From Oceanispirochaeta sp. (lineage in GTDB: Bacteria; Spirochaetota; Spirochaetia; DSM-2461): 42,747 nucleotides of DNA. Shown here one piece after another: positions 3,366-37,647 of the stretch (position 1 is its first letter; every line of letters starts with the position of its first letter). The translations under genes and the position numbers were made by a program. Below the pieces are notes generated by a model. That model made no database searches. It was given only the letters and a program-made list of their open reading frames with translations, and had not been told where the DNA came from. The DNA is taken from the NCBI RefSeq assembly GCF_027859075.1, contig NZ_JAQIBL010000316.1, positions 1 to 42,747 of the forward strand. Direction: 5' to 3'.

Positions 3366-3380
3366 ATTTTTGGAGGGATT

Positions 3381-4898: not shown

Positions 4899-4901
4899 GG
4901 C

Positions 4902-5903: not shown

Positions 5904-5925
5904 TTGAAGCTGGATAGAGGAAGAG

Positions 5926-6939: not shown

Positions 6940-6941
6940 TT

Positions 6942-7964: not shown

Positions 7965-8002
7965 TTGAAAAGAATTTTACTTGATAAGGCGTGCATCTTC
8001 GT

Positions 8003-8017: not shown

Positions 8018-8058
8018 CCGACATAACGAGATTTTTTTATTGCCTGAAGGAGGCTATT

Positions 8059-10748: not shown

Positions 10749-10756
10749 AGGAACAT

Positions 10757-11650
10757 ATGAAAAAAGAAAATGTAAAACTGGCCATGGCTCCCATTGGCTG
10801 GACCAACGACGATATGCCTGATCTGGGAGCAGAAAACAGCTTTGAACAGTGTGTCAGCGAAATGGCTCTGGCCGGTTATACAGGATCGGAAGTCGGGAAT
10901 AAATATCCCAAAGATCCGGTTGTCCTCAAAGAATACCTGGATATCAGAGGACTTCAAATCTGTAACCAGTGGTTCAGTTCCTTCCTGGCCTCCCAGCCGT
11001 ATAAACAGGTAGAGAAGGATTTCAGGGCTCAGCTCGGCTTTCTCAAAGCCATGGGTGCAGATGTGATCGGGCCTTCCGAACAGACCAGTTCCTGTCAGGG
11101 AGATCTCCATACTTCTGTATTCACCGGAAAGGCTGTATTTTCAACTGAAGAATTCAGAGCTCTGACAGAAGGCATGAATAAGCTGGGGCATATTGCCCGG
11201 GAAGAAGGCATGACTCTGGCTTTTCATCATCATATGGGCACCGCTGTGCAGACCATTGAAGAAACAGAACGTTTTCTTAATGATACCGATCCGGACAAAG
11301 TGACCCTGCTTTTTGATTCCGGTCATTTTGCATTTTCCGGTGAAGATCCCGTGGCAGCCCTCGAAAAATTCATCAGCAGGGTGGGGCATGTGCACCTCAA
11401 AGATATGAGAACGAATGTTTTTAATGAAGTCAAAACAAAGGATTCTTCTTTTATGGATGCTGTAAGAGAGGGTGTCTTTACCGTTCCCGGTGACGGAAGT
11501 ATTGATTTCCCTTCTCTCTTTACCATTCTGGATAAGAATAACTATAAGGGCTGGATGGTGGTAGAAGCCGAACAGGATCCTGCCAAAGCCAATGCTTTTA
11601 CTTACGCTAAAATGGCCAGAGACTATATCAGAATAAACGCAGGCATCTGA
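10757..11650 (+). CDS. iolE: myo-inosose-2 dehydratase
   Basis: A 297-residue TIM-barrel protein of the xylose-isomerase-like/AP-endonuclease family. The opening KLAMAPIGWTNDDMPDLG, the EVGNKYP segment, LAFHHHMGTAVQT, LLFDSGHFAFSGEDP, HVHLKDMR and the C-terminal VVEAEQDP are typical of IolE, which dehydrates scyllo-inosose. Metal-binding Glu, Asp and His residues are present. The ribosome site AGAGGAAC lies just upstream. It is third in the iolB-D-E-G transcript. Confidence 0.95.
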   Translation: MKKENVKLAMAPIGWTNDDMPDLGAENSFEQCVSEMALAGYTGSEVGNKYPKDPVVLKEYLDIRGLQICNQWFSSFLASQPYKQVEKDFRAQLGFLKAMGADVIGPSEQTSSCQGDLHTSVFTGKAVFSTEEFRALTEGMNKLGHIAREEGMTLAFHHHMGTAVQTIEETERFLNDTDPDKVTLLFDSGHFAFSGEDPVAALEKFISRVGHVHLKDMRTNVFNEVKTKDSSFMDAVREGVFTVPGDGSIDFPSLFTILDKNNYKGWMVVEAEQDPAKANAFTYAKMARDYIRINAGI

Positions 11651-11688
11651 CAGACCGTGAGTCTGGTCAGTAAATCAGGAGTAATTAA

Positions 11689-12702
11689 ATGAAAAAAAAG
11701 ACTGTAATCGGGATCATTGGTGCCGGAAGAATCGGCCGCGTTCATGCTGAAGGAATCTGTAATCAAATTCCTGGAGCCCATGTTAAATCAATGGCGGATC
11801 CTTTTATGAACGACGAAACGGCACAATGGGCTGAATCCCTGGGTGTCGAGTTTACCACAAAGGACTACAAAGAAATCCTGGATGATTCTGAAATTGATGC
11901 TGTTCTGATCTGTACCCCCACAGATACCCATGCCCGTATTACCAGAGAAGCAGCAAAGGCGGGAAAACACATCTTCTGTGAAAAGCCCATAGACCTGGAT
12001 GTGGAGAGCATTAAAGAAACCCTCAGGGTTGTGGAGGAGGCGGGAGTCAAATTCCAGATCGGCTTCAACAGACGCTTTGATCATAACTTCAGAGCCGTTA
12101 AGGATGCCGTTTCTGCCGGGAAAATCGGTGATCCCCATATGATCAAGATCATCAGCCGTGACCCATCTCCACCCCCCGTCGAATACATTAAGAGTTCCGG
12201 CGGAATCTTTGTGGACATGACAATTCATGACTTTGATATGGCCCGCTATCTCAGCGGCAGTGAAGTCGTTGAGGTCTATGTACAGGGAGCTGTTCTGGTT
12301 GACCCGGAAATCGGCAAAGCCGGAGACATCGATACGGCATTGATTACTCTCAAGTTTGCCAACGGTGCTATCGGCAGTATCGATAACTCCCGGAAAGCTG
12401 TTTATGGTTATGATCAGAGAGCCGAAGTCTTTGGAAGCAAAGGTTCTATCGCCTCAGGAAACGATACCCTCTCTACCGTGGTACTCAGTACCGAGGATGG
12501 GATCATCTCAGAAAAACCTCTTTTCTTCTTTCTGGAACGCTATTTGGCATCCTTTGTTCAGGAGCTCAGGGAATTCGTGCAGGCCATTGTGGATGATACA
12601 GACACCCCTCTTGGTGGTTTGGATGCATTGAGACCCGTACAGATTGCCATCGCTGCGGGTGAGTCTCTCAAAACCGGTCAGGCCGTGAAGCTTTCATACT
12701 AA
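11689..12702 (+). CDS. iolG: Inositol 2-dehydrogenase (copy 2)
   Basis: A 337-residue Gfo/Idh/MocA oxidoreductase with the Rossmann motif GIIGAGRIGRVHAEGI, CEKPIDLDV (catalytic Lys), GFNRRFDHNFRAVKDAV, and DMTIHDFDMARYLSG with the catalytic Asp and His. It matches IolG more closely than copy 1 and is the last gene of the catabolic transcript, with AGGAG before the ATG. The strong terminator at 12726-12761 follows. Genes for the later steps (kinase iolC, aldolase iolJ, dehydrogenase iolA) do not follow. Confidence 0.92.
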   Translation: MKKKTVIGIIGAGRIGRVHAEGICNQIPGAHVKSMADPFMNDETAQWAESLGVEFTTKDYKEILDDSEIDAVLICTPTDTHARITREAAKAGKHIFCEKPIDLDVESIKETLRVVEEAGVKFQIGFNRRFDHNFRAVKDAVSAGKIGDPHMIKIISRDPSPPPVEYIKSSGGIFVDMTIHDFDMARYLSGSEVVEVYVQGAVLVDPEIGKAGDIDTALITLKFANGAIGSIDNSRKAVYGYDQRAEVFGSKGSIASGNDTLSTVVLSTEDGIISEKPLFFFLERYLASFVQELREFVQAIVDDTDTPLGGLDALRPVQIAIAAGESLKTGQAVKLSY

Positions 12703-13599: not shown

Positions 13600-16170
13600 T
13601 TATTCTCCCCTATCCGTGGGGGATGGACCTTGATCCAGGATCTTCCTGATCGTTATAGACAGTTCTTTCATATTAAAGGGTTTCATCAGGAATCCTCTGA
13701 TTCCGATCATTTTCGCTTTCTCTTGATTCATTTTAGTGCTGAACCCTGTGCAGAGTATGACCGGTATATCAGGTCTGATCTTCATGATCTCTATCGCCAG
13801 ATTCTCTCCTGTCAAATCTGGCATGGTTTGATCCGTAATAATAAGATCAAACGAATTCGGACGGGATTGAAATAATTCAAGAGCCTCTCGGCTGCTTGTT
13901 TTTCCTGTTGCCTCATACCCAAGCTTTTCCACACATTGCTTTGTAATCTCTACAACACTCTTTTCATCATCTACAATGAGAATTTTTTCCTGGCCTAAAG
14001 GCAGGGGATCTGGAATTTTTATATTTTCAAAATTTTGTGTCTGTATCCTGGGGAAATACACTTTTATTGTCGTTCCGGTCCCGGGCCTGGTGTCAACGCT
14101 TATGAAGGCATCATTGCTTTTTATGATTCCCGCGACAACTGCCAATCCCATGCCTGAACCTTTTCCAATATCTTTGGTTGTGAAATAGGGATCAAAAATC
14201 CTGTCAATATATTGTTTTTCGATGCCCGTACCGGAATCCTCGATTATAAGCAGAACAAAATTACCCGGTTTGAGGTAAGGATCATCTTCCACGTCCCTTT
14301 TGGTCAGTAGAATTGAGTTCAGCGTTACTTTTAAGGTCCCTCCGTTTTCATCCATTGCCTGGGCGGCATTGGTACAGAGATTCATCATAACTTGATGAAT
14401 CTGAGTCGGATCGGCAAGTATATTGCCACATTGGGAATCGAGATCTTCCTCTATCCTTATGGTTGAAGGGATTGATGCCCGGAGGAGTATAAGAGCTTCT
14501 TTAACAACTGTATAAACATCAAGCGATCTGCGCTGGCTGAACTCTTTACGGCTGAAAGATAGAATTTGTTTTACAAGATCCCTGGCCCGATATCCGGCTT
14601 TAATAATCTGCTCAATCTGATTTTTAACAATACTCTCTTTGGGGAGATCCAGCAGGGCCAGATCAGCATAACCGAGCATGGCTGCCAGGATATTATTGAA
14701 GTCATGGGCGACTCCTCCCGCCAGAGTCCCGATTGCTTCCATTTTCTGAGATTGACTGAGCTGAGATTCAAGAGCCGCTCTTTTTTCTTCCGCCTGTAAG
14801 CGCTCGGTTAAATCAAGACCGCATGCCCAGTTCTGCTCTCCCATTGTAATAAATCCCCAGGAAATATGTTTTTTCGAACCGTCTTTGCATTTTACAACAG
14901 CCTCCATCGGTTCTATATCTGATCCTGTTTTAATGGCCAGTTCTATTCTTTTTTGCCATTCATCAACCAAACCCCGGCGATATTCCGCGTCAGGATAGGC
15001 CAGAGGATACCAATGATCAGCTGTCGGTACATCATCAATGGTATAGCCGAATAAATTTGTGAATGTAGAATTGATATAGACACATTTTTGCTCGACCCCC
15101 TCCGACATGTAGATGGCCAGAGGAGATGTGTCCGCAAGGGCCCGGAAATTCCGTTCACTTTCTTTGAGTGCCAGTTCCGCCCGTTTCCGATCTTCAACCT
15201 CTTTCAGGAGATCTTTTGTACGGAGTTTCACGACTCGGTTCAGCATGAGATTCCAGAATGTAAATACCAATACGATCAGAAATATTCCTGCTATGGTTAT
15301 GAGTATCAGGCTCTGGAGTTCCCTTTTTGTTACTCCCTCAGCTGTCTCCAGGTGTATCCATTTTTGACGAATATTTTTTCTCTCATTCTCCGACAGCAGG
15401 GTTACACCTTTTTCCAGAATACTGCTGAGTTCGGGCCAATCGGAGCGTACTCCGAAACCCGAAACATTGGGAGGTTCCGTCTCTCCAGCCACTTTTAAAT
15501 TTGTGATTCCTTCTGATTCAATGTAGAAGCTGGCTGTTGCCAGATCTCCCACAAAGGCATCGGCCATGGAAAATGAAACTTTCCTCAGAGCGGATTTTAA
15601 GTCGGGGACTAATTCAATTTTAATCTCCGGGTATTTAATCCGGATCAAATCTACATAACCGTAACCGGAGACCATAATCACATGCAGTCCCTTTAGTTTT
15701 TCCAGAGTTAATTCTTCAGTCACATTTTTTCTGACAATAATGACCGAAGGGATTGTCAAATAAGGTGGGGGGAAATCCATATACACTTCTCTGGCAGAAG
15801 ATTTGACAACGGCATTCAGCACATCCACTTCGCGGCGTTTCATCTTGTCGATGACATCGTCCCAGTTTTTACATTCTACAATTTCAAAACTGATACCCAA
15901 TTTTTCAGCTATCAGTTCTGCATAGTCAGCACCGATTCCGGCATAATTCCCGTCTTTGTCAAAAAACTCAACCGGCTGGAACTCAGGATCCGGTGCCAGG
16001 CGAATGACAGGGTGGGCTTTAATCCAGACCCTTTCAGCCTCTGTCAATAAGGATGTGCCCGTTTCAAACTCCCCAAAGGCAGATGAGGTATTCAATATTA
16101 GAATGATGAATAATAAAATTTTTGATTTTGAAATATGGATGCTCCTGAGTTTATCTCTATAGATTCCCAA
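13600..16170 (-). CDS. Hybrid sensor histidine kinase with periplasmic binding domain
   Basis: An 856-residue hybrid kinase. Residues 18-33 are a signal segment, about 42-275 an SBP_bac_3 (amino-acid-binding type) domain in the periplasm, and about 287-310 a membrane helix. About 335-458 is a PAS domain, about 470-540 HisKA with phospho-acceptor His489 (GGVAHDFNNI), and about 580-710 the ATPase domain (NLCTNAAQA, DSGTGI, GSGMGLAVV). Residues 728-845 are a receiver with Asp780 (LIITDQTMPD) and Lys830. No separate regulator with an output domain is adjacent. The start is uncertain: TTG at 16170 lies 7 nt after a -10 and has no ribosome site, whereas an ATT codon at 16134 has AGGAG 7 nt upstream and would begin a clean signal peptide. 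Confidence 0.88.
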   Translation of the reverse strand: MGIYRDKLRSIHISKSKILLFIILILNTSSAFGEFETGTSLLTEAERVWIKAHPVIRLAPDPEFQPVEFFDKDGNYAGIGADYAELIAEKLGISFEIVECKNWDDVIDKMKRREVDVLNAVVKSSAREVYMDFPPPYLTIPSVIIVRKNVTEELTLEKLKGLHVIMVSGYGYVDLIRIKYPEIKIELVPDLKSALRKVSFSMADAFVGDLATASFYIESEGITNLKVAGETEPPNVSGFGVRSDWPELSSILEKGVTLLSENERKNIRQKWIHLETAEGVTKRELQSLILITIAGIFLIVLVFTFWNLMLNRVVKLRTKDLLKEVEDRKRAELALKESERNFRALADTSPLAIYMSEGVEQKCVYINSTFTNLFGYTIDDVPTADHWYPLAYPDAEYRRGLVDEWQKRIELAIKTGSDIEPMEAVVKCKDGSKKHISWGFITMGEQNWACGLDLTERLQAEEKRAALESQLSQSQKMEAIGTLAGGVAHDFNNILAAMLGYADLALLDLPKESIVKNQIEQIIKAGYRARDLVKQILSFSRKEFSQRRSLDVYTVVKEALILLRASIPSTIRIEEDLDSQCGNILADPTQIHQVMMNLCTNAAQAMDENGGTLKVTLNSILLTKRDVEDDPYLKPGNFVLLIIEDSGTGIEKQYIDRIFDPYFTTKDIGKGSGMGLAVVAGIIKSNDAFISVDTRPGTGTTIKVYFPRIQTQNFENIKIPDPLPLGQEKILIVDDEKSVVEITKQCVEKLGYEATGKTSSREALELFQSRPNSFDLIITDQTMPDLTGENLAIEIMKIRPDIPVILCTGFSTKMNQEKAKMIGIRGFLMKPFNMKELSITIRKILDQGPSPTDRGE

Positions 16171-17201: not shown

Positions 17202-18146
17202 TTAATCAAGGCTGATCAGCCGGGATATTTTCTCTTTGAGGTTTTCCATATCTTCTTTCATACAGAACATATTTAGTACGGTCTGTCCCTTTATATCAAG
17301 ATTTTCAGGAGCCTTTTGTTCAGAAATGGTACTCCCATCAAACTGAAGACTCAATACAGTCTTGTTAAAGGGGATCAATGCTTTGAGGCGGATGACTTTT
17401 GGTCTGTTTTCATCGATAAGCTGATGAAGATCGGCAACGGTCCCCGTCAGGGGGCCCATGAGTGAGAGGGATTCAATACCGTCTTTGCCTGTATCGATCA
17501 TTTCCGGGTGGAACAGGAAGAGTCCCGTGGATGCTGCCGGGGATGTTACCGGTATTCCCGGGGTGCCGGGTTTCTTCCAGCATCCGCTGCGGGATTCAGC
17601 AAATCCTGTCAATCCCGGGTAGTGCTTCTGCAGCTTCACCCTGGTCTGCTCCAGGACATCCAAACTGTAGATATCCGCTTTGGTTATGAGCACAAGAGGT
17701 CTTCCCTCAAACTGACGGGAGTAGGCGGGTAGACGGTCATGGTAGCGGTCGCACTGACGGGCGTCCATGCAGACCAGCACATCTTTGACCCTGATTAAAT
17801 CGGAAGGAAAATTCTTTTCAATGGTCTGCTTCATTTCCCAGGGTACGGCCAGACCAGTGGCTTCAATATATATCTCATCCGGTTTTTCTTCATTCACAAT
17901 TTGTAAGAGAGTGTCCAGGAGTTTTGCCTTCAGGCTGCAACAGATGCATCCGCCGGATATCTCCTTTTTTGAGTATCCACCTTTTTCAATGAGCAGGCTG
18001 TCTATGTTCACTTCACCAAAATCATTAATGATGACGGCTGTTCTCAGCTGTGGATTCAAATCGTTGAGAAGCTGGTTCAAAACAGTCGTCTTACCACTCC
18101 CCAGAAAGCCTCCCAGAATGGTTGTCATGATTGTATTGGAAGTCAT
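17202..18146 (-). CDS. CobW/G3E-family GTPase (metal chaperone type)
   Basis: A 314-residue G3E GTPase. The P-loop is GGFLGSGKTTVLNQLL (residues 12-27), GGCICCSL contains the CxCC metal-binding motif (Cys67, 69, 70), EATGLAVPW follows, and LITKADIYS is the guanine-specificity region. A CobW C-terminal domain follows residue 220. Such proteins insert Zn, Co or other metals into client enzymes. The nearby MBL-fold hydrolase is a plausible client (inference). No ribosome site precedes the ATG, and a -10 element ends 6 nt before it, so the message is probably leaderless. Confidence 0.88.
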   Translation of the reverse strand: MTSNTIMTTILGGFLGSGKTTVLNQLLNDLNPQLRTAVIINDFGEVNIDSLLIEKGGYSKKEISGGCICCSLKAKLLDTLLQIVNEEKPDEIYIEATGLAVPWEMKQTIEKNFPSDLIRVKDVLVCMDARQCDRYHDRLPAYSRQFEGRPLVLITKADIYSLDVLEQTRVKLQKHYPGLTGFAESRSGCWKKPGTPGIPVTSPAASTGLFLFHPEMIDTGKDGIESLSLMGPLTGTVADLHQLIDENRPKVIRLKALIPFNKTVLSLQFDGSTISEQKAPENLDIKGQTVLNMFCMKEDMENLKEKISRLISLD

Positions 18147-22891: not shown

Positions 22892-23175
22892 TCAAAGACG
22901 AGGACATCCTTTAAAAAGGGACCGGCGAACTCAGAAAACTCCTTATGTGAGGGGTGAACCAGGTAGCGGTCCCTTTCTTCACATCCCTTGAAACTCAATA
23001 CATAGGACATGGTATATCCACGGCTTATACCTTCCACAGAGATATCCATCCCCGACTCAAAACCGGAAATTTCCGGGATAATACCCGGGAGTGCACAAAA
23101 CCTTTGATGAAGTTCCATGATTTCCGGCGAGTCCAATTCCTTTTCATATGAAAATAAAACGATGTGTTTGACCAT
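22864..23175 (-). CDS. Dabb (stress-responsive alpha/beta barrel) domain protein
   Basis: A 103-residue protein. MVKHIVLFSYE, ISGFESGMDIS, YTMSYVLSFKGCEERDRYLVHPSHKEFSEFAGPFL and VFDYD are typical of the Dabb family, whose members form dimeric barrels; function is mostly unknown. AAGGAGA precedes its ATG. It is divergent from the CUT1 binding protein, with the double TCATATGA box in between, and its tail overlaps the oxidoreductase gene. A single TCATATGA also lies within its 5' codons (about 23143-23150) with no partner 21 bp away. Confidence 0.88.
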   Translation of the reverse strand: MVKHIVLFSYEKELDSPEIMELHQRFCALPGIIPEISGFESGMDISVEGISRGYTMSYVLSFKGCEERDRYLVHPSHKEFSEFAGPFLKDVLVFDYDAEVILT

Positions 23176-23258
23176 TTTTAAGTCTCCTTAATCTTTGTAT
23201 AGAGGGTAATATTGATTCTAATGCATAGAAATAGATGTTGTAAATGAAGAAAACATCT

Positions 23259-23287
23259 TCATGTGAAAATTAAAACTTTACATATGA
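23259..23287. promoter_or_regulatory. Double TCATATGA box, copy 2
   Basis: TCATGTGA (23259-23266) and ACATATGA (23280-23287) start exactly 21 bp apart, the spacing seen at copies 1 and 3. The second box overlaps the -35 of the CUT1 operon promoter (23277-23282), the position of a repressor site. Confidence 0.65.
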
Positions 23288-23305
23288 AAATCAAGATGGT
23301 ACAAT
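23277..23305 (+). promoter_or_regulatory. Promoter of the CUT1 ABC operon
   Basis: The -35 TTTACA (23277-23282), 17 bp, and -10 TACAAT (23300-23305) predict a start near 23312. A leader hairpin CCACAG-AGATA-CTGTGG (23329-23345) ends 5 nt before the AAGGAGG ribosome site. Confidence 0.6.
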
Positions 23306-27561: not shown

Positions 27562-28932
27562 CTAAAGGCTGTATTTACTGATTTTATTGAAAAGGGTTTT
27601 CCGGGTGACTCCCAGCTCTTCTGCTGCGGCTGTTTTATTGAACCTGTTCCGGATCAGTGTTTCTCTAATGATATTCTTTTCATACTTCTCTATCACGCCG
27701 TCCATCCTGTCCTGGAGGCTTAGGCTTTCAGAAATCCCCGGGGTTAATCCTTCCTCTGATGAAGTCAGGGGCTCTTCTCTGCGGTTTAATCCCGCCGTCT
27801 CCAGAGTGGCTTCCTCGGTTAGAAGGACTGTCTGGTTGATCAGGTTTTTCAGTTCCCGAATATTCCCGGGCCATCCATAGACTTTCATGGACTCACAGGC
27901 CGCCGGCGAAAAATTGAGTTGACCCTTTCTGTATTTTTTGCCGTAAAGGGCCTTGAAATACTCTGCCAGAAGAAGGATGTCCTCGGGCCTGTCCTTCAGA
28001 GAGGGAAGAACCAGACTGATCACATTCAGGCGGTAATATAAATCCTCCCGGAATTCCTTTTTTTGAATCAGTGAGACCAGGTCCTGATTGGTGGCCGCTA
28101 TGACCCGGATATTGACCCTGACGGTTCTATTTCCACCGACCCTCTCCAGAGTCCCTTCTTCCAGAACCCGGAGAAGCTTGGCCTGGGCATCCGGGGACAT
28201 GTCACCAATCTCATCCAGGAATAGAGTTCCTCTGTCGGCTAGTTCAAACTTGCCGATTTTCCTTTCGTGAGCCCCGGTAAAGGCGCCTTTTTCATGCCCG
28301 AAAAGTTCACTCAGCAGGAGCGTTTCCGAAAGGGCTGCGCAGTTTACACCGATGAAGGGAGCCCCATGTCTATTGCTGGTAAAGTGAATATAGCGGCTGA
28401 GGACCTCTTTCCCCGTTCCGCTGTCACCTGTGATCAGAACCGTTGTATCCGTATCCTTTACCTTATCTGCCACGGTCAGGATTTTTTTCATCTTCGGGTT
28501 GTTCGTCCTGAAGTTAAAATCCAGCATTTTTTCCTGTTGTTCTTCCTTCAAGAGGAGGTTTTCATTCTTGAGATGCTTCAGCTCGAGCCGTTCATTGACA
28601 GCCTTCAGCAGGTATTCATTATCCAGGGGCTTGAGCAGGTAGTCTGCCGCTCCCTCGCGCATGGCCTCAACCGCATTGCTGATGCTTCCATAGCCCGTGA
28701 TCATCAGACAGATCACATCGCTGTTGATCATCTGAATTGATTTCAAGAGTTCCACACCATCCCTGTCGCCCATACGGATATCCAGCAGGGCTATATGGAT
28801 CTCTGTAGTCCTGATGCATTCCAGGGCCGATTCATAATCCTCTGCGGTAAAGCTCTCATGGCCCTCTCTTTGAAACAACTTGCTGAGGCCGATGCGGATT
28901 CCTTTTTCATCGTCGGCTATGAGTATATTCAT
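27562..28932 (-). CDS. Sigma-54-dependent response regulator (NtrC family)
   Basis: A 456-residue activator. A receiver domain (about 1-115, phospho-acceptor Asp51 in HIALLDIRMGDRDG, Lys101) is followed by an AAA+ domain (about 143-370). That domain has Walker A GDSGTGKE (169-176), the sigma-54 contact loop GAFTGA (216-221), Walker B GTLFLDEIGD and the arginine-finger region FREDLYYRLNV. A Fis-type helix-turn-helix closes the protein (NKTAAAEELGVTRKTLFNKI). It overlaps the kinase gene by 4 nt (ATGA). The operon starts at a sigma-54 promoter (32240-32255), so it very likely activates its own synthesis. Confidence 0.95.
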   Translation of the reverse strand: MNILIADDEKGIRIGLSKLFQREGHESFTAEDYESALECIRTTEIHIALLDIRMGDRDGVELLKSIQMINSDVICLMITGYGSISNAVEAMREGAADYLLKPLDNEYLLKAVNERLELKHLKNENLLLKEEQQEKMLDFNFRTNNPKMKKILTVADKVKDTDTTVLITGDSGTGKEVLSRYIHFTSNRHGAPFIGVNCAALSETLLLSELFGHEKGAFTGAHERKIGKFELADRGTLFLDEIGDMSPDAQAKLLRVLEEGTLERVGGNRTVRVNIRVIAATNQDLVSLIQKKEFREDLYYRLNVISLVLPSLKDRPEDILLLAEYFKALYGKKYRKGQLNFSPAACESMKVYGWPGNIRELKNLINQTVLLTEEATLETAGLNRREEPLTSSEEGLTPGISESLSLQDRMDGVIEKYEKNIIRETLIRNRFNKTAAAEELGVTRKTLFNKISKYSL

Positions 28933-31031
28933 ACCGCCTCCTGTTTTGAGATTGTAGGGAGTGAGAACACAATGACAGTGCCTGTGCCCTTTTTGCTTTC
29001 GATCTTGATTGTGCCCTTGTATTTCATGATGATGCCATATACAACAGACAGGCCCAGACCAGTACCTTCGTTGTTTGCCTTGGTTGTGAAAAAAGGATCG
29101 AAGACACGGTTGAGAATTTCTTCGGGGATGCCTTTTCCCTGATCCTCAATAGTCATGATAGCCCTCTGGTTTTCTTCTCTGATGCTGATTTTTATAGGTT
29201 TGTCATTTTCTGTGGCATGGGCTGCATTCTGCAGCAGATTGATAAGAACCTGCATCAACTCCCCCTTGGATATAATCACATCTGCCACTGCTGGATCGCA
29301 CAGAATGCTGACAGGAGGAATCCTGGTGCCATCGGGTCTGCGGGAGTGGCGGATCAATCGTACGACCTCTTCCGCTACAATCAGGGGAGAGCAGATGTTT
29401 CCCTGACCGAGTTCCCTGGATGTGAAATTCGTCAGATCCCTGATAATCTGGGCAATCCTTATGGACTCTTCTTCTACCAGATGGAGAGATTTAAGGCGCT
29501 CTGTGTCGGCCTCTTCGTAAATCAGATTTTGTATATTCGTCAGGATGGAGGACAGAGGATTGTTCACCTCATGGGCAATCCCTGCAGAAAGCATACTGAT
29601 GGAGGAGAGTTTTTCCGCCTGGAATATTTTTTCCTCATAGGCATTCTTTTCGGAAATATCCTCCAGGATAAGAACACACATCCTTTTCTCAGAATGCATA
29701 TGAGACTCCCGATGAACAGGATAAATCTTAACCTCAAAAACCTGGTCCTGTCTGTTCCGGATGCGCTGAGTCCAGCGTTCTTCACCCTGAAACAGGACCT
29801 TCCTGACACCCTCGAGAAGAGTGGTATCAAAGTTTTCATTGATAAATCCTGTCAGAGTTCTGACCTTTAATTCCGTCAAAATGTCAAAGGCGGGATTCGC
29901 TTTTTCTATGATCATATCATCGTTGACGACTGCTAGAGCATCCCTGATGGAGTGGATGACTTCTTCGTTGAACTCATTGAGAAACGTGATTTCATCAAGG
30001 GATTTTTCAATTTTGATCTGGTCTTGATGAAGTCGGGCGGCCATGCCGTTGAATCCCTTGAGCAGAACCCCCATCTCTCCCTTATCTGCAATTTTCAGCT
30101 GTACATTATAGGAGCCTTCCCGGATATGACCCATGGCATTGGCCAGCAGGGCTACAGGCCTTGTGATGCCTCTTGTAAAGATAAGAATGAGGAGGAATGT
30201 GAAGAGCAGTGTGAAGAGGGATACAGTCAGAACAGTCCTCTCGATGGAGAGTATCCTCCGCTGATAGGGTTCATTTGAAAGAATGGTTGTCAGATAGACA
30301 GAACTGGTGTTTCCACTGCTGCTGCTGATCTCTCCCACCTTGGTGCTGGCCATGTTGTAACTCTGATCCTCTTCCTCCAGGTCATACCACTCCTTATAAG
30401 CCATTCCAGGTAGGGTTCCGGATTGATGAAACGCTATGGTCTGGATCTCCTTATGACCCGCAAGAAAATCTGTTGATGTATGAAACAGTATCCTCCCGTC
30501 TTTATCAAAGATAATATTATTGAGAAAGCTGTCATTGATGTGTTTGACCAGATAAATCTCGGTATTTCCCGAAAGGGAACTCAAATTAATAATCCCGATC
30601 ATGTAAAACTGCCCCTTCATCTGATACAGGCTGATGGAGGGGTGATTATATACGACTGATAGATCTTCCACAGGAGGCAGAATAAAATCGGGGCTGGTAT
30701 TCAGGGCAGTCATAGAATAATTGCCGTCTTCTGTTTTGATAATAACTGCATCTATATTGGAGGATGTAAGAAGACTTTTCAGTTCACCACTCTTCAGGTT
30801 TTCCTCATCCATTTCTTTTGAATACTCCAGGACCTGTATCAGTTGTTTCCAGAGATGGCGTTTCCATGATTGATAGTTATTCACAATGAAATCTGCCTTC
30901 AGCCTCAATTCCACTAGGGCATCCTCCAGATTATTATTTCGGATGGTTCTACTGACCAATATTCCTGTAAACGAGGCTTGAAGCAGAATGAGGATCAGGA
31001 TTGTCAAGGCCAGCTTGGGATACAGTTTCAT
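28929..31031 (-). CDS. Sensor histidine kinase (HAMP-PAS)
   Basis: A 700-residue membrane kinase. The first membrane helix is at about 7-27, a periplasmic sensor domain at about 30-262, and the second membrane helix at about 266-287. HAMP covers about 288-340, PAS about 345-465, and HisKA has His487 (LSAGIAHEVNNPLSSIL). The ATPase domain is at about 590-690 (LINLLQNAAHAT, DQGKGIP, GTGLGLSVV). The large extracytoplasmic domain is well placed to touch the periplasmic binding protein encoded 2 nt upstream. The cognate regulator overlaps its stop codon. Confidence 0.94.
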   Translation of the reverse strand: MKLYPKLALTILILILLQASFTGILVSRTIRNNNLEDALVELRLKADFIVNNYQSWKRHLWKQLIQVLEYSKEMDEENLKSGELKSLLTSSNIDAVIIKTEDGNYSMTALNTSPDFILPPVEDLSVVYNHPSISLYQMKGQFYMIGIINLSSLSGNTEIYLVKHINDSFLNNIIFDKDGRILFHTSTDFLAGHKEIQTIAFHQSGTLPGMAYKEWYDLEEEDQSYNMASTKVGEISSSSGNTSSVYLTTILSNEPYQRRILSIERTVLTVSLFTLLFTFLLILIFTRGITRPVALLANAMGHIREGSYNVQLKIADKGEMGVLLKGFNGMAARLHQDQIKIEKSLDEITFLNEFNEEVIHSIRDALAVVNDDMIIEKANPAFDILTELKVRTLTGFINENFDTTLLEGVRKVLFQGEERWTQRIRNRQDQVFEVKIYPVHRESHMHSEKRMCVLILEDISEKNAYEEKIFQAEKLSSISMLSAGIAHEVNNPLSSILTNIQNLIYEEADTERLKSLHLVEEESIRIAQIIRDLTNFTSRELGQGNICSPLIVAEEVVRLIRHSRRPDGTRIPPVSILCDPAVADVIISKGELMQVLINLLQNAAHATENDKPIKISIREENQRAIMTIEDQGKGIPEEILNRVFDPFFTTKANNEGTGLGLSVVYGIIMKYKGTIKIESKKGTGTVIVFSLPTISKQEAV

Positions 31032-31033: not shown

Positions 31034-32026
31034 TTAATATATATATTGCTCCATTTCAGGATTGTTGATATTGGATTTATTGAAGACCACATATCCCGAA
31101 GTGATACTGGGGGGTATCTCCTTGTGATCAATCAAGTATTTATAGGCCCATTCGACCGCCAGGGCTCCGATTTCTGCGGGTTTCTGTGCCAGAACAAGAT
31201 CGACTTCACCGTTTCTGAGGCTGGCAATCAGGGAGTCTGTGGCATCCCAGGCGGCCACACGAACAGCCCCGGATAGACCGGCGTTTTTAACCGCCGCAGA
31301 CACTCCCTGGCTGCTGAACACATTTGTTCCGAAGGCCGCAACAAGATCGGGATTCTTCATCAGTGCACTGAGGGTCTGTTTCATGGCCACCGTCTGAAGG
31401 TCTCCATTGTAATCGATCTGGACAATTTCCATCTCGGGAAAGTGTGAAATCCCCTCCATAAACCCGTTTTTCCGCTCTTCCGTCGTGGATGTTTCCTCGG
31501 TGGTTGTATTGATATAGACCTTTCCTTTTTCATTGACCTGTTCCGCCAGGGTTTCCGCCAGGTAGACGGCTCCGGCAAAGTTGTCAGTTCCTATATGGGC
31601 GAGGGGAAAGGACCAGTCCGAGGGCAAGGTATACAGGCCGTCCCCAATTTTTGTATCCACTGTAATGATTTGTATCCCCTGATTATAACACTCTTTCAGA
31701 GGCACAATGAGGGCGTCATTGGCTACGGGAGCAATCATGATGAGGTCGTATTTTTTTGCCGCAATCGCCCTTTTGAGGATGGGGATCTGCACTGCCGGCT
31801 CCCATAATTCAGGGTATTCAGAAACATCCAGAGAGACACCCATTTCCTCGGCTTTCATCAAAGCACCCTTTTCCATGGAATAGTAGAAAGGGTCGGCTAC
31901 GCCGGGAACATAGAGGATATTCAGGTCGGTTTTATCCAGGGATTCTCCCTGCCCTGATGCTCCTGAGATCATAGTTACAGTCAGGAGCAGAACAGTGAGA
32001 AGGAGAGTTAATTTTAATCCGCTCAT
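31034..32026 (-). CDS. Periplasmic sugar-binding-type protein (sensor accessory)
   Basis: A 330-residue type I periplasmic binding protein (Peripla_BP_4-like). A signal peptide spans about residues 1-25. LNILYVPGVADPFYYSMEKG, YDLIMIAPVANDALIVPLKECYNQGIQIITVDTKIG, AHIGTDNFAGAVYLAETL and DLVAAFGTNVFSSQGVSAAVKNAG fit the ribose/xylose-binding group. No permease or ATPase is adjacent, and it heads a kinase/regulator pair, so it probably presents a sugar signal to the kinase rather than feeding a transporter. No Shine-Dalgarno is visible before its ATG; translation may depend on the small gene ending 15 nt upstream. Confidence 0.88.
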   Translation of the reverse strand: MSGLKLTLLLTVLLLTVTMISGASGQGESLDKTDLNILYVPGVADPFYYSMEKGALMKAEEMGVSLDVSEYPELWEPAVQIPILKRAIAAKKYDLIMIAPVANDALIVPLKECYNQGIQIITVDTKIGDGLYTLPSDWSFPLAHIGTDNFAGAVYLAETLAEQVNEKGKVYINTTTEETSTTEERKNGFMEGISHFPEMEIVQIDYNGDLQTVAMKQTLSALMKNPDLVAAFGTNVFSSQGVSAAVKNAGLSGAVRVAAWDATDSLIASLRNGEVDLVLAQKPAEIGALAVEWAYKYLIDHKEIPPSITSGYVVFNKSNINNPEMEQYIY

Positions 32027-32041
32027 GGGATTAGGAGTATA

Positions 32042-32212
32042 TCACAGGGTGAGGGTATTCGCTACTTTTTGAAGGAATTCCTGTCCTTCCGGGGTGATTT
32101 GAAAATAGTCTGCTACCCAGAGGATCTGCCCGGCGCCGCTTGAGCTTTCCTCTCTGAATTCTTCCCTTTGGTCCTTATAGTTGTATTCTGTCAGCAAAGT
32201 TTGATTCTCCAT
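32042..32212 (-). CDS. 56-residue small protein, first gene of the sensing operon
   Basis: An open frame of 56 codons starts at ATG 32212 with ribosome site AAGGGAGA 9 nt upstream. It lies directly downstream of a sigma-54 promoter and 15 nt before the binding-protein gene. The product is soluble and acidic at the start (YNYKDQREEFREESSSG), then more hydrophobic (GQILWVADYFQITPEGQEFL). It has no signal peptide, membrane helix or family that I recognise. The ribosome site, promoter spacing and operon position support a real gene; it may regulate the operon or help translate the next gene. Confidence 0.6.
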   Translation of the reverse strand: MENQTLLTEYNYKDQREEFREESSSGAGQILWVADYFQITPEGQEFLQKVANTLTL

Positions 32213-32239
32213 TTTTTGATTCTCCCTTAACTATTACTA

Positions 32240-32255
32240 AGCAAGAGTTGTGCCA
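32240..32255 (-). promoter_or_regulatory. Sigma-54 (-24/-12) promoter
   Basis: On the reverse strand TGGCACAACTCTTGCT fits the consensus TGGCACR-N4-TTGCW exactly, with GG and GC 12 bp apart. The start is predicted near 32229, giving a leader of about 17 nt that begins at the ribosome site of the 56-residue gene. It drives the small protein, binding protein, kinase and sigma-54 regulator. Confidence 0.88.
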
Positions 32256-32327
32256 TACTTTTTTTAATAAGGAGAATATGGTGTAAATCATTATCATGGA
32301 AAGTTATATCTTTTGATTATGGTTGTT

Positions 32328-32426
32328 TTAGAGAGTCGCCGGATCGGGGGCGAGGACCGGAATTGGATAGTCCTCTACCCGTATCGGGTAATTCCCTTCC
32401 CGGGAAATAAACTCATAGTATTCAAT
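32328..32426 (-). other. Start-less 32-codon open stretch (possible gene remnant)
   Basis: Just past the reductase stop, another reverse frame reads IEYYEFISREGNYPIRVEDY followed by PIPVLAPDPATL and a stop. Composition looks protein-like, but there is no start codon and it overlaps the candidate enhancer dyads. It may be the tail of a lost gene or chance. Confidence 0.25.
32376..32406. promoter_or_regulatory. Candidate enhancer sites for the NtrC-type regulator
   Basis: A perfect dyad TACCCG-TAT-CGGGTA (32376-32390) and a palindrome TTCCCGGGAA (32397-32406) lie about 150-175 bp upstream of the sigma-54 start, the usual range for enhancer-binding activators. Assignment to the NtrC-type protein is inference. 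Confidence 0.45.
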
Positions 32427-33291
32427 TCATCTTAAGGTTGTACTCCCGGACACATTTGATTACCGCCTCCGAAGTTTCAGAGAACTTGATTCCCCTGGTC
32501 TGTATCAATGATGTATCTAAACGGGCATCCCGGTCTTTCCGGGCATATTTTATCTCATCCTTGATAATCAGTTCCTCAATTCGATGTTCCAGGCCCAGTT
32601 CTTTCATGATAAGGCAGACAATATCGTATCGGCTTTGATCATTTTTAGAACCCACATGGTAGGTTCCGGAAGGGAGATCCATGATTGTATCAAACTGATC
32701 CATCAATTCATTCACATAGGTCAGTCCGCGGTACTCATGAGAGGGAACCCGGATGGATTCACCTTTCATGACGGCCTTAACGGTGTCCCAGAGAACATTG
32801 TTCACAACAGGCCGGAATCGTTCAGGAACTCCGAACATCCATGTGAAACGGAGAATCAGCACATCCTCCAGAATGGATTGAATCAGCCCCTCGGCTTCCA
32901 GCTTGTTTTTACCGTACATTGTATCGGGAATGGGTGTATTACTCTCCTTGTAGGGACCGCCTTCGGGGTTGCCGTTGAAGACCTGTTCCGTGCTGAGAAA
33001 GATCATCCGGGCTCCCGCCTCCTTGCAGGCCTGGGCAATGTTAGCAGCACCGGTCACATTGATGGCATAGCATTTTTCAGGGTGTTCATTGCAGAAATCT
33101 GTCAGGGCAATAGCGGCAGCATGTATGACATAGTCGGGTTTGAACAGCCTCAGGGCATCCTGTATTTTGTCTTTTTCATGAATATTCAACTCAGCAACAT
33201 CTGTAGAGAGAATTTCAAAATTGTGGTGGTGAGCCTCTTTGAATCTTGTACCGATAAATCCGTTTCCTCCGGTGAGCAGGACTCTTTTCAT
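32422..33291 (-). CDS. NAD-dependent epimerase/dTDP-4-dehydrorhamnose reductase-like protein
   Basis: A 289-residue extended short-chain dehydrogenase of the RmlD type. LLTGGNGFIGTRF is the NAD(P) motif, DYVIHAAAIALTDFCNEHPEKCYAINVTGAANIAQAC the typical strand 4-5 region, LSTEQVFNGNPEGGPYKES leads to MYGKNKLEAE with the YxxxK catalytic pair. RmlD-type enzymes reduce 4-keto sugar nucleotides. There is no other nucleotide-sugar gene nearby, and its promoter region carries the double TCATATGA box shared with the CUT1 operon, so a catabolic or modification role for the same sugar is possible. AGGAG precedes its ATG. Confidence 0.85.
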   Translation of the reverse strand: MKRVLLTGGNGFIGTRFKEAHHHNFEILSTDVAELNIHEKDKIQDALRLFKPDYVIHAAAIALTDFCNEHPEKCYAINVTGAANIAQACKEAGARMIFLSTEQVFNGNPEGGPYKESNTPIPDTMYGKNKLEAEGLIQSILEDVLILRFTWMFGVPERFRPVVNNVLWDTVKAVMKGESIRVPSHEYRGLTYVNELMDQFDTIMDLPSGTYHVGSKNDQSRYDIVCLIMKELGLEHRIEELIIKDEIKYARKDRDARLDTSLIQTRGIKFSETSEAVIKCVREYNLKMN

Positions 33292-33487: not shown

Positions 33488-35875
33488 TCAGAGAACCTGC
33501 TGTGTCCTGGCTATGATATCATTCTGCGTTTCTGCTGAAAGATTGGTAAAAAAGGCGGAATACCCGGCGACCCGGACAATCAGATCCCGGTGCTCTTCAG
33601 GATGTTTCTGAGCGGCCAGCAGGGTTTCCCTGTCTACGATATTAAACTGGATGTGCCATCCCTTCAGATCGTCAAAGAAGGCGTGAAGCATGTCGGCCAG
33701 TTTTTGTCTGTTTCCTTCAGATTCCAGAACGGCGGGGGTCATTTTCTGGTTGAGGAGGACTCCCCCCAGAATCTGGTCGGTTCTCAGTTTGCTGATGCTC
33801 TTCATGACTGCGGTAGGGCCCTTCCTATCGGCACCCGAAGAGGGAGAGGCTCCTTCAGCAAGGGGTTTCCATGCTTTTCTTCCGTCAGGGGTGGCCGGGA
33901 CTATGGATCCGGCGGGAACATTTCCGGATATGCTGGATGTCCCGGCGTAGTAACGGCAGCCGATGGGTCCGCAACCCTCTCTTATGGTTCTGAAGTGACT
34001 GATCTCATCAATAAATGAGTCATAGGCCTCTACCAGAAGATTGTCCACATTCTCATCGTCGTTCCCGAATTTGGGAGCATGGTTCAGAAGAATCTGTCTG
34101 ATCTTTTCTCCTCCGGAACCCTCAAAATTATTTTCAAGGGCTTCCATCAGTTCTCCGGCGCCGATCCGCTTTTCCTCAAAGACAAGCTTTTTAATCGCTG
34201 CAAGGGAGTCTCCCAGGTTGGCAATTCCCACCTGCAGGCCCGATTCAAAGTCGTATTTGCTGCCACCTTCGTGGATTGTCAAACCCCGTTCCAGGCAGGG
34301 TTCGGTAAAGGCCGAACAGAGGATATCCGGGGCTTCATCCCGCAGGACCACATCGATGGCTGCGTCAATGGCAATGCCCGCTCTGGCGTAATACCGGACT
34401 TGCCTGTCCCAGGCCTCCAGGAGCTGGGAATACTCAGTGAAATCCGTGAGCATCCCTGTCCCTTTGCAGAACTGCCGACCGCTCACAGGATCTGTTCCAT
34501 CATTGAGAGCTGCCATAAAAACCCGCATAAAGTTCAGGAAGTGTTTTCCTGTACAGCGGTAGCCCCAGCGGCCGGGAACAGCCACCTCAATGCAGCCGAT
34601 GGCGGAATAATCCCAGGCATCTTCTTCCTCCACACCCCATTCTCTGAAAGAGGGAATCACGATGGAGTCATTGTTAAAGGCGGGCATGCCGAATCCCAGG
34701 CGGATCACCTCGATGCACTCTTTTAAAAAGTCATCATTCAGACCGGGATGGAAACGGACAGACAGATTAGGCTGGGTGAGTCTTGTCTCTCCCACAGATT
34801 TCAATATGAGAGTGCTCAATTCATTGACGCCATCACTGCCGTCTCTGAGCTGCCCTCCTATGGTCACATTCTGGTATAGAGGTCCCCCCGCAGAAAACCG
34901 GGTATGAGACCAGGATCGGATCTTTTTCATGCTCACCAGTTTGAGCCAGGTATTTTCCAGAAGCTCCATAACAAAATCATCGCGCAGGAGGCCCTTTTCT
35001 TTATCCGATTTGTAAAAGGGGTAGAGGTACTGGTCCATCCGGCCCAGAGACAGGGAGTGACCATTGCTTTCGATCTGCAGGGTCAACTGCAGGAAGTAGG
35101 TCAATTGAAGTGCCTGGTAGAACCCCTGAGGAGGGTTTACAGCGATGTTATGACAATTTGAGGCTATCTGCTTCAACTCTCCGATTCTGTGTTTATCCCG
35201 GGAGCTATTGTGAAGAAGCTCTGCCAGGGCGGAAAAGCGGATGATGAATTTCTGGAGGGCTTTCAAGGATATCAAGGTGGCCTTGTAGTACTGGTATTTT
35301 TTAATACCCTTAGCACCCATTGTATCGGTTTTCCCCAGCAGCTCTTCTACATGCCGGATGTACCAATCCAGACCTTTCTCCAGAACCTTGGGGAAATGGG
35401 CGGCGATGTGGGCATCACCGGAAGTCAGATTCCCTTCGGCCCTGATGATTCCGGTTTCATGAATGGCCAGAAGGTCATCGGTCATCAGGGATCTACCCTT
35501 GTCCAGAGTCGTTGATCCCTTCCAGAAGCTGCAGATCTCAAGCAGTTCCGTCTTTGTCATGTCATCAGGGAAAAAGCAGTCGGATGGTCTTTTTTCAAAG
35601 TCATCCAATTCTTTGATGATCCATTCTACAGCATACTCCGGGAAAATCGGAGCCGCATAAATCCGGGAGGAGTGGTTTCCCACAATCAACTCTTCCGGTT
35701 CAATGCGGATGGTCATCTTCTCCAGGGTCTCTTTCAGGGCGAAGGCCCTCTTCATGATGACCGGTTTGTCTTTATGCATTTTATAGGCTTCCGTATAAAA
35801 CCGGGCCCTTTCGGTACATATGGTGGGTAGGGAGGATAATATTCTGTCTCTGTAGGCATTGATTCTTTCGGTCAT
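33488..35875 (-). CDS. Glycyl radical enzyme (dehydratase/lyase type), substrate unknown
   Basis: A 795-residue glycyl radical enzyme. The thiyl-radical Cys and the base Glu are in IGCIE (Cys428, Glu430), the GC-x-E form seen in dehydratases and C-N/C-S lyases rather than in pyruvate formate-lyase. The radical Gly is Gly771 in VRVAGYSAFF near the C-terminus. PATPDGRKAWKPLAEGASPS is the usual family stretch before it. The start at 35875 has AGGAGG upstream and overlaps the activase stop (ATGA). The enzyme needs anaerobic conditions and its activase. No microcompartment shell or aldehyde dehydrogenase genes are near, so the glycerol, propanediol or choline roles are not supported. Confidence 0.92.
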   Translation of the reverse strand: MTERINAYRDRILSSLPTICTERARFYTEAYKMHKDKPVIMKRAFALKETLEKMTIRIEPEELIVGNHSSRIYAAPIFPEYAVEWIIKELDDFEKRPSDCFFPDDMTKTELLEICSFWKGSTTLDKGRSLMTDDLLAIHETGIIRAEGNLTSGDAHIAAHFPKVLEKGLDWYIRHVEELLGKTDTMGAKGIKKYQYYKATLISLKALQKFIIRFSALAELLHNSSRDKHRIGELKQIASNCHNIAVNPPQGFYQALQLTYFLQLTLQIESNGHSLSLGRMDQYLYPFYKSDKEKGLLRDDFVMELLENTWLKLVSMKKIRSWSHTRFSAGGPLYQNVTIGGQLRDGSDGVNELSTLILKSVGETRLTQPNLSVRFHPGLNDDFLKECIEVIRLGFGMPAFNNDSIVIPSFREWGVEEEDAWDYSAIGCIEVAVPGRWGYRCTGKHFLNFMRVFMAALNDGTDPVSGRQFCKGTGMLTDFTEYSQLLEAWDRQVRYYARAGIAIDAAIDVVLRDEAPDILCSAFTEPCLERGLTIHEGGSKYDFESGLQVGIANLGDSLAAIKKLVFEEKRIGAGELMEALENNFEGSGGEKIRQILLNHAPKFGNDDENVDNLLVEAYDSFIDEISHFRTIREGCGPIGCRYYAGTSSISGNVPAGSIVPATPDGRKAWKPLAEGASPSSGADRKGPTAVMKSISKLRTDQILGGVLLNQKMTPAVLESEGNRQKLADMLHAFFDDLKGWHIQFNIVDRETLLAAQKHPEEHRDLIVRVAGYSAFFTNLSAETQNDIIARTQQVL

Positions 35876-36756
35876 AATGCGCCTCCTATGGTGGCATTCC
35901 ATCCTCTGGACTCGGCCATCTGGATATAAGGGTGGACTTCTTCGATATCCATAGAATGCAATGGCAAAGAATAGGGGAGTCCCAGGGCTTCGTGTTTTCC
36001 GGCTCCCAGAGGGTGATAGGGCATAAAGTCAATGGCCTTCACACTCTTTAATCCTGATACAATATCCAGTATGGATTCTATGGCTTTCCCTTCATGGTTA
36101 AAACCATAGATAATGGGAACCCGGATACGAATCGGGACTTCTCGGCTGTCCAGTTTTTTCAGGTTCTCCAGGATCAGATTCAAGTCTCCTCCCGTATGTT
36201 CTTTAAAAATAACAGGGTCCCCATGTTTGAGATCACAAAGGAACTCATCTATATAAGGCAGGACCAATTCTATATTTTTCCAGGGGATATGGAGGCAGGT
36301 TTCAACAGCTGTCATCAGGCCCTGATTTTTTAATAATTCAGCCGTTTCTTTACAGAGTCCGGGCTGAGAGAGGGGTTCACCTCCGGAAAAAGTCACACCT
36401 CCGCCGGAGGCTGAATAAAAGGGCTTGTCCTTTAAGACTTCCCGGGCAATTTCTCCAGGTGTCATCGATTCTCCCGAGACCGTGATAGTTCCGCTGGGGC
36501 ATAGGGTTTTAAGGGCTTCGACTGACTCCAGAGCCACCAGGTTTGTCCCTTGTTGTCTCAGATCGCCGCAGTCTCCGCAGGAGATGCATCCGCTGTTTCC
36601 GATCATAAACTGAGGTTCGTATTTTTTTCCCTCCGGATTGGCGCACCAGGGGCAGTTCAGGGGACAGCCTTTGAAGAAGACGGTTGTTCTGAGACCTGTG
36701 CCGTCATGCAGAGAAAAACCCTGAATATTAAAAACAAACCCCATAGCCCCCCCCAT
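35872..36756 (-). CDS. Glycyl radical enzyme activase (radical SAM)
   Basis: A 294-residue radical SAM enzyme that installs the glycyl radical on the enzyme encoded just downstream. The radical SAM cluster motif is CPLNCPWC (Cys31, 35, 38). An inserted ferredoxin-like segment has only four Cys (57, 60, 63, 86), where many relatives have eight, so probably one extra cluster. TFSGGEPL is the SAM-binding GGE motif. The ATG at 36756 lies 6 nt after a -10 and has no ribosome site (leaderless); a second in-frame ATG at 36744 is an alternative. A G8 run covers the first codons. Confidence 0.92.
   Translation of the reverse strand: MGGAMGFVFNIQGFSLHDGTGLRTTVFFKGCPLNCPWCANPEGKKYEPQFMIGNSGCISCGDCGDLRQQGTNLVALESVEALKTLCPSGTITVSGESMTPGEIAREVLKDKPFYSASGGGVTFSGGEPLSQPGLCKETAELLKNQGLMTAVETCLHIPWKNIELVLPYIDEFLCDLKHGDPVIFKEHTGGDLNLILENLKKLDSREVPIRIRVPIIYGFNHEGKAIESILDIVSGLKSVKAIDFMPYHPLGAGKHEALGLPYSLPLHSMDIEEVHPYIQMAESRGWNATIGGAL
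36747..36754 (-). repeat. G8 homopolymer at the activase start codon
   Basis: On the coding strand eight consecutive G begin with the last base of the first ATG. Length changes would shift the frame from ATG 36756 but leave ATG 36744 intact, so the tract could act as a switch between start codons. Confidence 0.5.
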
Positions 36757-36900: not shown

Positions 36901-37647
36901 ATGATTGAAAGACACGAAGAAATATTGAATCTTGTCAGTGAAGGGAAAGAGATCTCAGTCCAGGAGCTCTCGGACCAGCTGGCGGTATCCCTTGTCACGA
37001 TTCGAAGTGATCTGAGGGTTCTGGAAGAAAATGGTCTTCTTGTCAGGACGAGAGGGGGTGCCGAACTCTCCTCTGAAGATGATATTGCCCGCCGGATGGG
37101 CATCAATTACAGCATCAAGCAGAAGATTGCCTCCAAGGCTGTGAGTTTTATCAATGAAGGGGATACGATCTTCCTGGAAGCCGGTTCCTGCATTGCTCTT
37201 ATGGCCAGGGAGTTGAAAGTCTTCAGCAGCCTCAATGTCTTGACCAATAATGCCTTTGTCGCCAGGCAGATGAAGGATGCTCCGGGTGTCAAGGTTATCC
37301 TTCTGGGGGGTGAATTTCAAAAGGACAGTGAAACCATGGTGGGACCCATGATAAGGGAGTATCTCTCCTATTATAACTTCAGCAAAGTTTTTTTGGGGAT
37401 GGATGGTTTTACCCTGGACCAGGGCGCCATGTGCCGGGATCTGGACCGGGCGGAGGTCATGGCGGAGTTTGTTGCCGCCGGGGAGGATGTCTTTATCCTC
37501 TCTGATTCATCTAAATTCGGCATGAAAGGAATTCGAGTCTTTGCAGAGATTCGGGATATTGACCGGATCATCACGGACAGTCATATTTCTGAGACCATGA
37601 AAGATTCTCTTTCCCACATGAATGTCTCTGTTTATTGTGTCTCCTAG
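36901..37647 (+). CDS. DeoR-family regulator 2
   Basis: A 248-residue DeoR-type regulator clearly related to regulator 1. The helix-turn-helix (VQELSDQLAVSLVTIRSDLRVLEENGLLVRTRGGAEL, about residues 18-55) is followed by the sensor domain (IFLEAGSCIALMARE, LLGGEFQKDSETMVGP, FLGMDGFTLDQGAMCRD, ILSDSSKFG). Its ligand is likely a phosphorylated sugar. It is divergent from the activase/glycyl radical enzyme operon with the GAAAGT operator between them, the classic layout of a local repressor. Confidence 0.92.
   Translation: MIERHEEILNLVSEGKEISVQELSDQLAVSLVTIRSDLRVLEENGLLVRTRGGAELSSEDDIARRMGINYSIKQKIASKAVSFINEGDTIFLEAGSCIALMARELKVFSSLNVLTNNAFVARQMKDAPGVKVILLGGEFQKDSETMVGPMIREYLSYYNFSKVFLGMDGFTLDQGAMCRDLDRAEVMAEFVAAGEDVFILSDSSKFGMKGIRVFAEIRDIDRIITDSHISETMKDSLSHMNVSVYCVS

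Follow-up and report, generated by a model that had tools for sequence, protein, structure and literature searches.

The window analyzed here is the whole 42,747-nt stretch of Oceanispirochaeta sp. contig NZ_JAQIBL010000316.1, in which a small open reading frame (ORF) is followed on the reverse strand by genes for a sugar-type periplasmic binding protein (SBP), a sensor histidine kinase and an NtrC-family response regulator (Table 1). The original prediction had described this gene order, ending in an NtrC-type activator with a GAFTGA motif, and our analysis bears it out; the junctions between the genes are tight (15 bp, 2 bp and a 4-bp ATGA overlap).

Table 1. Features of the unit and its upstream region (positions in the window)
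Feature	Position	Strand	Remarks
NtrC-family response regulator	27562..28932	-	REC, Sigma54_activat (AAA+), HTH_8 (Fis-type HTH)
Sensor histidine kinase	28929..31031	-	TM, dCACHE (~residues 26-261), TM, HAMP, HisKA (His487), HATPase_c
Sugar-type periplasmic binding protein (SBP)	31034..32026	-	Peripla_BP_4, E 2e-41; N-terminal signal sequence, no lipobox cysteine
Putative internal sigma-70 extended -10, TG-A-TATACT	32036..32044	-	Overlaps the small-ORF stop codon; ends 9 nt before the SBP ATG
Gene for 56-aa small protein	32042..32212	-	Conserved W-x2-D-hh-x-I-T-x2-G...Q motif
Sigma-54 (-24/-12) promoter	32241..32255	-	Exact TGGCAC-N5-TTGC
Upstream enhancer dyad 2, GGGTA-GAGGAC-TATCC	32365..32380	-	Exact GGRTA-N6-TAYCC
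Inter-dyad palindrome	32375..32391	.	Facing half-sites of both dyads
Upstream enhancer dyad 1, GGGAA-GGGAAT-TACCC	32386..32401	-	One mismatch to GGRTA-N6-TAYCC

Components of the unit and its sigma-54 promoter

The regulator combines a REC domain, an AAA+ domain with GAFTGA at residues 216-221 and a Fis-type helix-turn-helix, as expected of the NtrC family, and its phospho-acceptor Asp51 is in place; among the orthologues listed, GAFTGA or GSFTGA is found in 19 of 19. The kinase had been predicted to carry a PAS domain, but we detected none in it (a weak PAS_9 match occurs in one of nine relatives), and its extracytoplasmic domain is of the dCACHE type; a domain search found no receiver (Response_reg) domain in it. 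A model of the first 350 residues gave a confident dCACHE fold (pLDDT 81.6) that matched LuxQ (3c38, Z 13.6, 4.1 Å over 186 residues) and LuxP-bound LuxQ (1zhh_B, Z 12.4); LuxQ stands among the best structural matches, level with other dCACHE domains, and the likeness is permissive only for signaling from the SBP to the kinase.

The gene for a secreted SBP adjoins those for a kinase with an extracytoplasmic sensor domain and a regulator, which is the arrangement of a three-component system. The closest solved chain to the SBP is 5dkv (E 1e-78), presumably a tagatose-bound protein, and in one relative genes for a PfkB kinase and a class II aldolase lie ahead of the operon. The family of the SBP suggests a sugar as ligand, and a ketohexose-like compound is a reasonable guess from that family and the PfkB and aldolase neighbors. 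Elsewhere in the window, 13600-16170 (-) encodes a hybrid sensor kinase, with a receiver domain, to which an extracellular SBP_bac_3 domain is fused, and 2320-12702 (+) encodes an Rbs-type sugar ABC transporter, a LacI regulator, KduI/IolB, a TPP enzyme, a TIM-barrel isomerase and a GFO/IDH/MocA dehydrogenase, which looks like a myo-inositol catabolism cluster.

Upstream of these genes lies TGGCACAACTCTTGC, with the 10-bp GG/GC spacing of a -24/-12 promoter, and the small ORF starts 28 nt 3' of its TTGC. The genome (4.36 Mb) holds five exact TGGCAC-N5-TTGC sites, compared to one for a reversed-pattern control, and encodes both RpoN (PF04552, E 8.6e-56) and ten full-length sigma-54 activator domains. 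Three of the remaining four exact sites behave like genuine promoters: one belongs to a pspA-like gene that has a pspF-like activator next to it, another to an Rbs-type sugar ABC operon with a divergently oriented NtrC regulator, and the third to a 147-aa ORF (names read from the sequences); the fourth, within a permease gene, is probably a chance match.

Three related genomes show the same promoter, small ORF and gene order, with TGGCACAACCCTTGC in G005, TGGCATACCCTTTGC in G006 and TGGCATGTATCCTGC in Candidatus Marispirochaeta associata JC231 (locus L175) at the matching place. In G005 and G006, which belong to the same genus as the window, the promoter is ~25 nt 5' of the same small ORF, and both the unit and its surroundings are kept; the whole unit of Ca. 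M. associata, from promoter and small ORF through SBP and kinase to regulator, stands in an unrelated neighborhood. Thus, the exact TGGCAC/TTGC promoter that had been claimed is confirmed, as the sole exact site in the window and at a position conserved in four genomes. We also note that a glycyl radical enzyme and its activase differ between genomes (33488-36756 compared to L024 11270-15999), and that G005 has here both an 87% orthologue and a further one, oppositely oriented, with 35% identity.

The upstream dyads of the original prediction proved to be real, as two tandem GGRTA-N6-TAYCC sites, one exact and one with a single mismatch, set 21 bp apart from center to center. Dyad 2 has its center 117 bp ahead of the -24 element, and the pair spans 117-138 bp, within the range (about -100 to -200) where activator sites are found; exact dyad copies are also present at the unit in G005, G006 and L175. 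Upstream of family promoters, the exact motif occurs in 21 of 30 cases (0.04 in shuffles) and the motif with at most one mismatch in 25 of 30 (0.69 in shuffles), at 93-170 bp; the motif was read from the same promoters in which it was later counted, which makes the count partly circular. The excess is nevertheless very large, and L139 and L151, which were outside the motif derivation, also have the dyad. No dyad with at most one mismatch was seen at L126, L148, L163, L167 or the transporter promoter of G002. We read the dyad as the predicted binding site of the linked NtrC-type regulator, an assignment made by linkage in a genome with ten sigma-54 activators. The palindrome TTACCCGATACGGGTAG consists of the facing half-sites of the two dyads, and TTACCCGNNNCGGGTAA, considered as an operator, was set aside since its genome counts equal those of the control and it is the junction between the dyads.

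The first gene and a conserved extended -10

The first gene had been called new, and this holds, in that it encodes a conserved protein under purifying selection that matches no family in Pfam or NCBIfam. The ORF is preceded by the Shine-Dalgarno sequence AAGGGAG, and neither a signal peptide nor a membrane segment is evident in its product. The small proteins of the window, G005, G006 and L175 share W-x2-D-hh-x-I-T-x2-G and a Gln, and that of Ca. M. associata keeps this W/D/IT/G/Q pattern at 19% overall identity. In the conserved C-terminal part, pN/pS among the three closest genomes is 0.32-0.36 at dS 0.6-1.1, compared to 0.24-0.30 for the SBP in the same three-genome comparison; the N-terminal half is poorly conserved. 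The AlphaFold model (pLDDT 60.6) was too poor for a fold search, and the best PDB profile match, a MUS81 chain, reached an E of only 0.38 and was not used.

A second conserved element lies at the end of the small ORF. The sequence TG-N-TATA(C/A)T is kept in four genomes (the window, L024, L125 and L175), where it ends 8-9 nt before the SBP ATG; in three of these genomes it overlaps the stop codon of the small ORF, and in the other it falls just after the stop. We found no -35 for it; likewise, a consensus scan of 31950-32450 that required a -35 yielded no canonical two-hexamer sigma-70 promoters and no terminators. The SBP gene lacks a Shine-Dalgarno sequence in the small-ORF clade, in contrast to the mostly normal one in other spirochaetes, and this lack combined with a conserved extended -10 is seen only in that clade. 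We propose that the extended -10 could produce a basal, nearly leaderless mRNA for the sensor proteins. Three other genes of the window (17202-18146 (-), 35872-36756 (-) and 36901-37647 (+)) have no Shine-Dalgarno sequence and a -10-like hexamer ~12-15 bp before the start codon, and leaderless mRNAs may be common in this organism.

The spirochaetal family, its targets and alternative readings

The original prediction had proposed searching genomes for the SBP-kinase-NtrC block with an upstream -24/-12 site. A scan of 84,980 species genomes with an SBP alignment yielded 53 loci, mostly from spirochaetes, and in most spirochaetes the gene order is SBP-permease-permease-ATPase-kinase-NtrC regulator, with the SBP gene first. 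Indeed, a -24/-12 site precedes the SBP gene in 21 of 21 kinase-bearing loci with enough upstream sequence, compared to 0 of 9 complete loci without a kinase and with at least 6 kb of downstream sequence (Fisher P = 7e-8), a correlation that is partly phylogenetic in that the kinase-less loci are mostly from non-spirochaetes (L136, L140, L142 and L156 are spirochaetes); in a co-occurrence control, 3% of shuffles scored as well. Thus, the statement that the unit contains no transporter is right for the window's lineage and wrong for the wider family, in which the importer usually lies inside the operon.

The permease is missing from the window's genus as a whole: queried with a permease from a transporter-bearing operon, 6 of 6 genomes of the genus gave no orthologue at E ≤ 1e-40, whereas three genomes of another genus of the family matched at E ~1e-160. 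In an unrooted SBP tree, the members of the small-ORF clade group together with support, and their branch is long; the SBP of G002, which has no transporter, likewise has a long branch. Both are consistent with a change of function. Since the SBP family is otherwise a transporter component, we infer that the transporter was lost, rather than gained later elsewhere, a direction that is drawn from an unrooted tree.

We looked for further targets of the regulator among the exact dyad copies of three genomes (29 in G000, 38 in G005 and 33 in G006, 100 in total). Only the operon's own copy has a -24/-12 site scoring at least 12 within 240 bp in G000 and G005, and the same holds for the own copy of G006. 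Likewise, among the 24 TGGCA-N6-TTGC sites of G000 listed (L240 and L245 are not covered), this promoter alone has a dyad with at most one mismatch. Degenerate regulator sites could escape such a search. The sole dyad copy with a -24/-12 site is thus that of the unit's own promoter, and therefore no other target can be predicted.

Several sugar transport operons deserve mention here. The neighboring sugar ABC/ROK operon, which adjoins the unit in three genomes, was rejected as a sigma-54 target, having no -24/-12 site and different repeats (TTTCATATGAAA type); TTTCATATGAAAAT-type repeats at 23143-23295, upstream of this operon and conserved in G005 and G006, are taken as the operator of a different regulator. 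Behind a related SBP-kinase-regulator unit in G002 comes an Rbs-type transporter, which has an exact -24/-12 site of its own and a GAGTA-N6-TACTC dyad; this points to an ability of such regulators to act at a transporter promoter. At L069 5986-6110 in this genome, the palindrome GAATGAGTA-N6-TACTCATTC and the exact -24/-12 site lie before the Rbs-type transporter. A second sigma-54 sugar ABC operon, also of Rbs type and divergent from an NtrC-type regulator, is found at L025 3401-3640 (G000:C297) with the 23-bp palindrome TTGTGTGTAACTGTTACACACAA upstream. Paralogous kinase/NtrC pairs lie beside Rbs-type transporters in G005 and G006 (L076 8920-13304 and L077 8597-13108), and no -24/-12 site was found upstream of these transporters at two mismatches.

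We considered whether the promoter, the activator or the output might differ from what self-activation requires. With one mismatch allowed, the window contains four matches to the -24/-12 pattern where two are expected; nevertheless, this match is exact, keeps its position in four genomes and has counterparts in every kinase-bearing family locus, which leaves a chance origin next to no weight. It also seems quite improbable that one of the nine other sigma-54 activators of the cell drives this promoter and leaves the loop unclosed: cognate binding is deduced from linkage in a genome with several activators, but promoter and dyad track the presence of kinase and regulator in the same operon across loci. 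A more serious contender, to which we give somewhat less than even weight, is that the main output lies elsewhere, in an unlinked sugar transporter or catabolic operon reached through degenerate sites, with the autoloop only amplifying the signal, as with AatJ-AauSR and CuaDSR. In the literature consulted, the three-component systems of this sort all control uptake genes (PMC10384115, PMC7386598), and both the transporter promoter behind the related G002 unit and the sugar ABC/ROK operon beside ours would fit such an arrangement. Against it, the three genomes contain no second -24/-12 site with a dyad, the adjacent ABC/ROK operon has other repeats and no such site, and no sugar transport genes lie directly beside the Ca. 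M. associata unit.

The small ORF could likewise be a translated leader, a by-product of a shift of the promoter away from the SBP gene, with a functionless peptide that merely couples translation. The SBP gene of this clade, without a Shine-Dalgarno sequence, starts 15 bp past the small-ORF stop, and the N-terminal half of the peptide is poorly conserved, as expected in that case; however, the C-terminal half is kept at the amino-acid level at substantial synonymous divergence (pN/pS and dS as above), and its W/D/IT/G/Q pattern survives in the distant Ca. M. associata protein, so that we regard a mere leader as unlikely. The small protein might be a cytoplasmic feedback modulator or effector, a guess to which we give less than even weight.

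Proposed working of the unit and its known counterparts

We infer self-activation as the best-supported reading, and a strongly supported one, because of the co-occurrence of promoter and kinase (21 of 21 compared to 0 of 9) and the shared enhancer dyad. Thus, the self-activation of the original prediction is well supported by comparison (co-occurrence, dyad and conservation), and its description of the unit as unusual stands only in part: the circuit, usually with its ABC transporter, is widespread in spirochaetes and has an amino-acid counterpart in AatJ-AauSR/RpoN. We consider it likely that the unit is a three-component sugar sensor which depends on sigma-54 and activates itself, and that it descends from a spirochaetal operon in which an ABC importer was encoded as well.

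Our model takes the elements, their order, conservation and co-occurrence from the sequence; the ligand, the binding and phosphotransfer steps, the activity of the promoters and what the small protein does are proposals. The SBP would close on its ligand, which is probably a ketohexose or a monosaccharide like it, and make contact with the kinase's dCACHE domain as LuxP does with LuxQ; the kinase would then phosphorylate the regulator, which would bind both tandem dyads (117-138 bp ahead of the -24 element) and drive RpoN-polymerase at the -24/-12 promoter. The resulting transcript would give the small protein and more SBP, kinase and regulator, a positive loop that could amplify a weak signal into a lasting and possibly bistable state. 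The extended -10 at the small-ORF stop may meanwhile supply basal sensor proteins without the small protein, which would be the sole product restricted to the switched-on state. It is conceivable, if rather doubtful as a whole, that an import operon here became a stand-alone sensory switch, which lost its importer, kept its own promoter as the regulator's only remaining target, retained a basal sensor through the leaderless internal promoter, and has as its sole non-sensory output the new 56-residue protein, for which the sigma-54 transcript would be the only source.

Sigma-54 in spirochaetes has been studied mainly in Borrelia and Leptospira. The family described here defines a conserved sigma-54 sugar-uptake module for spirochaetes, with an enhancer motif from which regulons can be predicted from sequence. 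In the window's clade, this transporter-sensor operon appears to have become a self-activating switch that only senses and whose first product is a new small protein, a natural case for asking what purpose a positive feedback loop serves without an evident metabolic output. What is new in this clade is the transporter-less form, the selected small protein behind the sigma-54 promoter and the conserved extended -10. We found no description in the open-licence papers searched of the sugar version, its spread in spirochaetes, the enhancer motif or the transporter-less form with the small protein.

The principle of the circuit is already known from AatJ-AauSR, CuaDSR and ZraR, and the sugar version differs from each of these. 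AatJ-AauS-AauR/RpoN of Pseudomonas is the same circuit for acidic amino acids, in which the regulator binds the inverted repeat TTCGG-N4-CCGAA ahead of the SBP gene and drives the locus (PMC7386598, PMC7962211). Like our unit, that locus joins an SBP, a sensor kinase and a sigma-54 enhancer-binding regulator, but it recognizes acidic amino acids and includes an ABC transporter, whereas the window has a sugar-type SBP (Peripla_BP_4), GGRTA-N6-TAYCC sites and the small protein first, and lacks the linked permeases and ATPase that other spirochaetes have. ZraR autoregulates its own operon (PMC12316311), and ZraSR and similar sigma-54 two-component operons resemble our unit in this self-activation by an NtrC-type regulator, but contain no sugar-binding component. 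In CuaD-CuaS-CuaR of Ruminiclostridium cellulolyticum, a sensing-only SBP works with an AraC-type regulator (PMC10384115); systems of this and the XylFII-LytS type share with ours an SBP dedicated to sensing beside kinase and regulator and separate from the importer, but they use an AraC-type regulator rather than sigma-54 and target an ABC operon.

LuxP-LuxQ-LuxO of Vibrio offers a further likeness, with a periplasmic SBP on a dCACHE-fold kinase, a fold that the window's kinase shares, and a sigma-54 NtrC-type regulator at the end of the pathway. LuxQ is a hybrid kinase that feeds a phosphorelay through LuxU, whereas the window's kinase is a simple one without a receiver and would act in a direct loop. 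The output of the LuxO pathway consists of small RNAs (PMC2680268). Also close are the spirochaetal SBP-permease-permease-ATPase-kinase-NtrC operons (for example L128, L130, L150 and L152), which have an orthologous SBP (~50-57%), kinase and regulator, the same promoter and mostly the dyad, but which include the importer, have no small ORF and mostly provide the SBP gene with a normal Shine-Dalgarno sequence.
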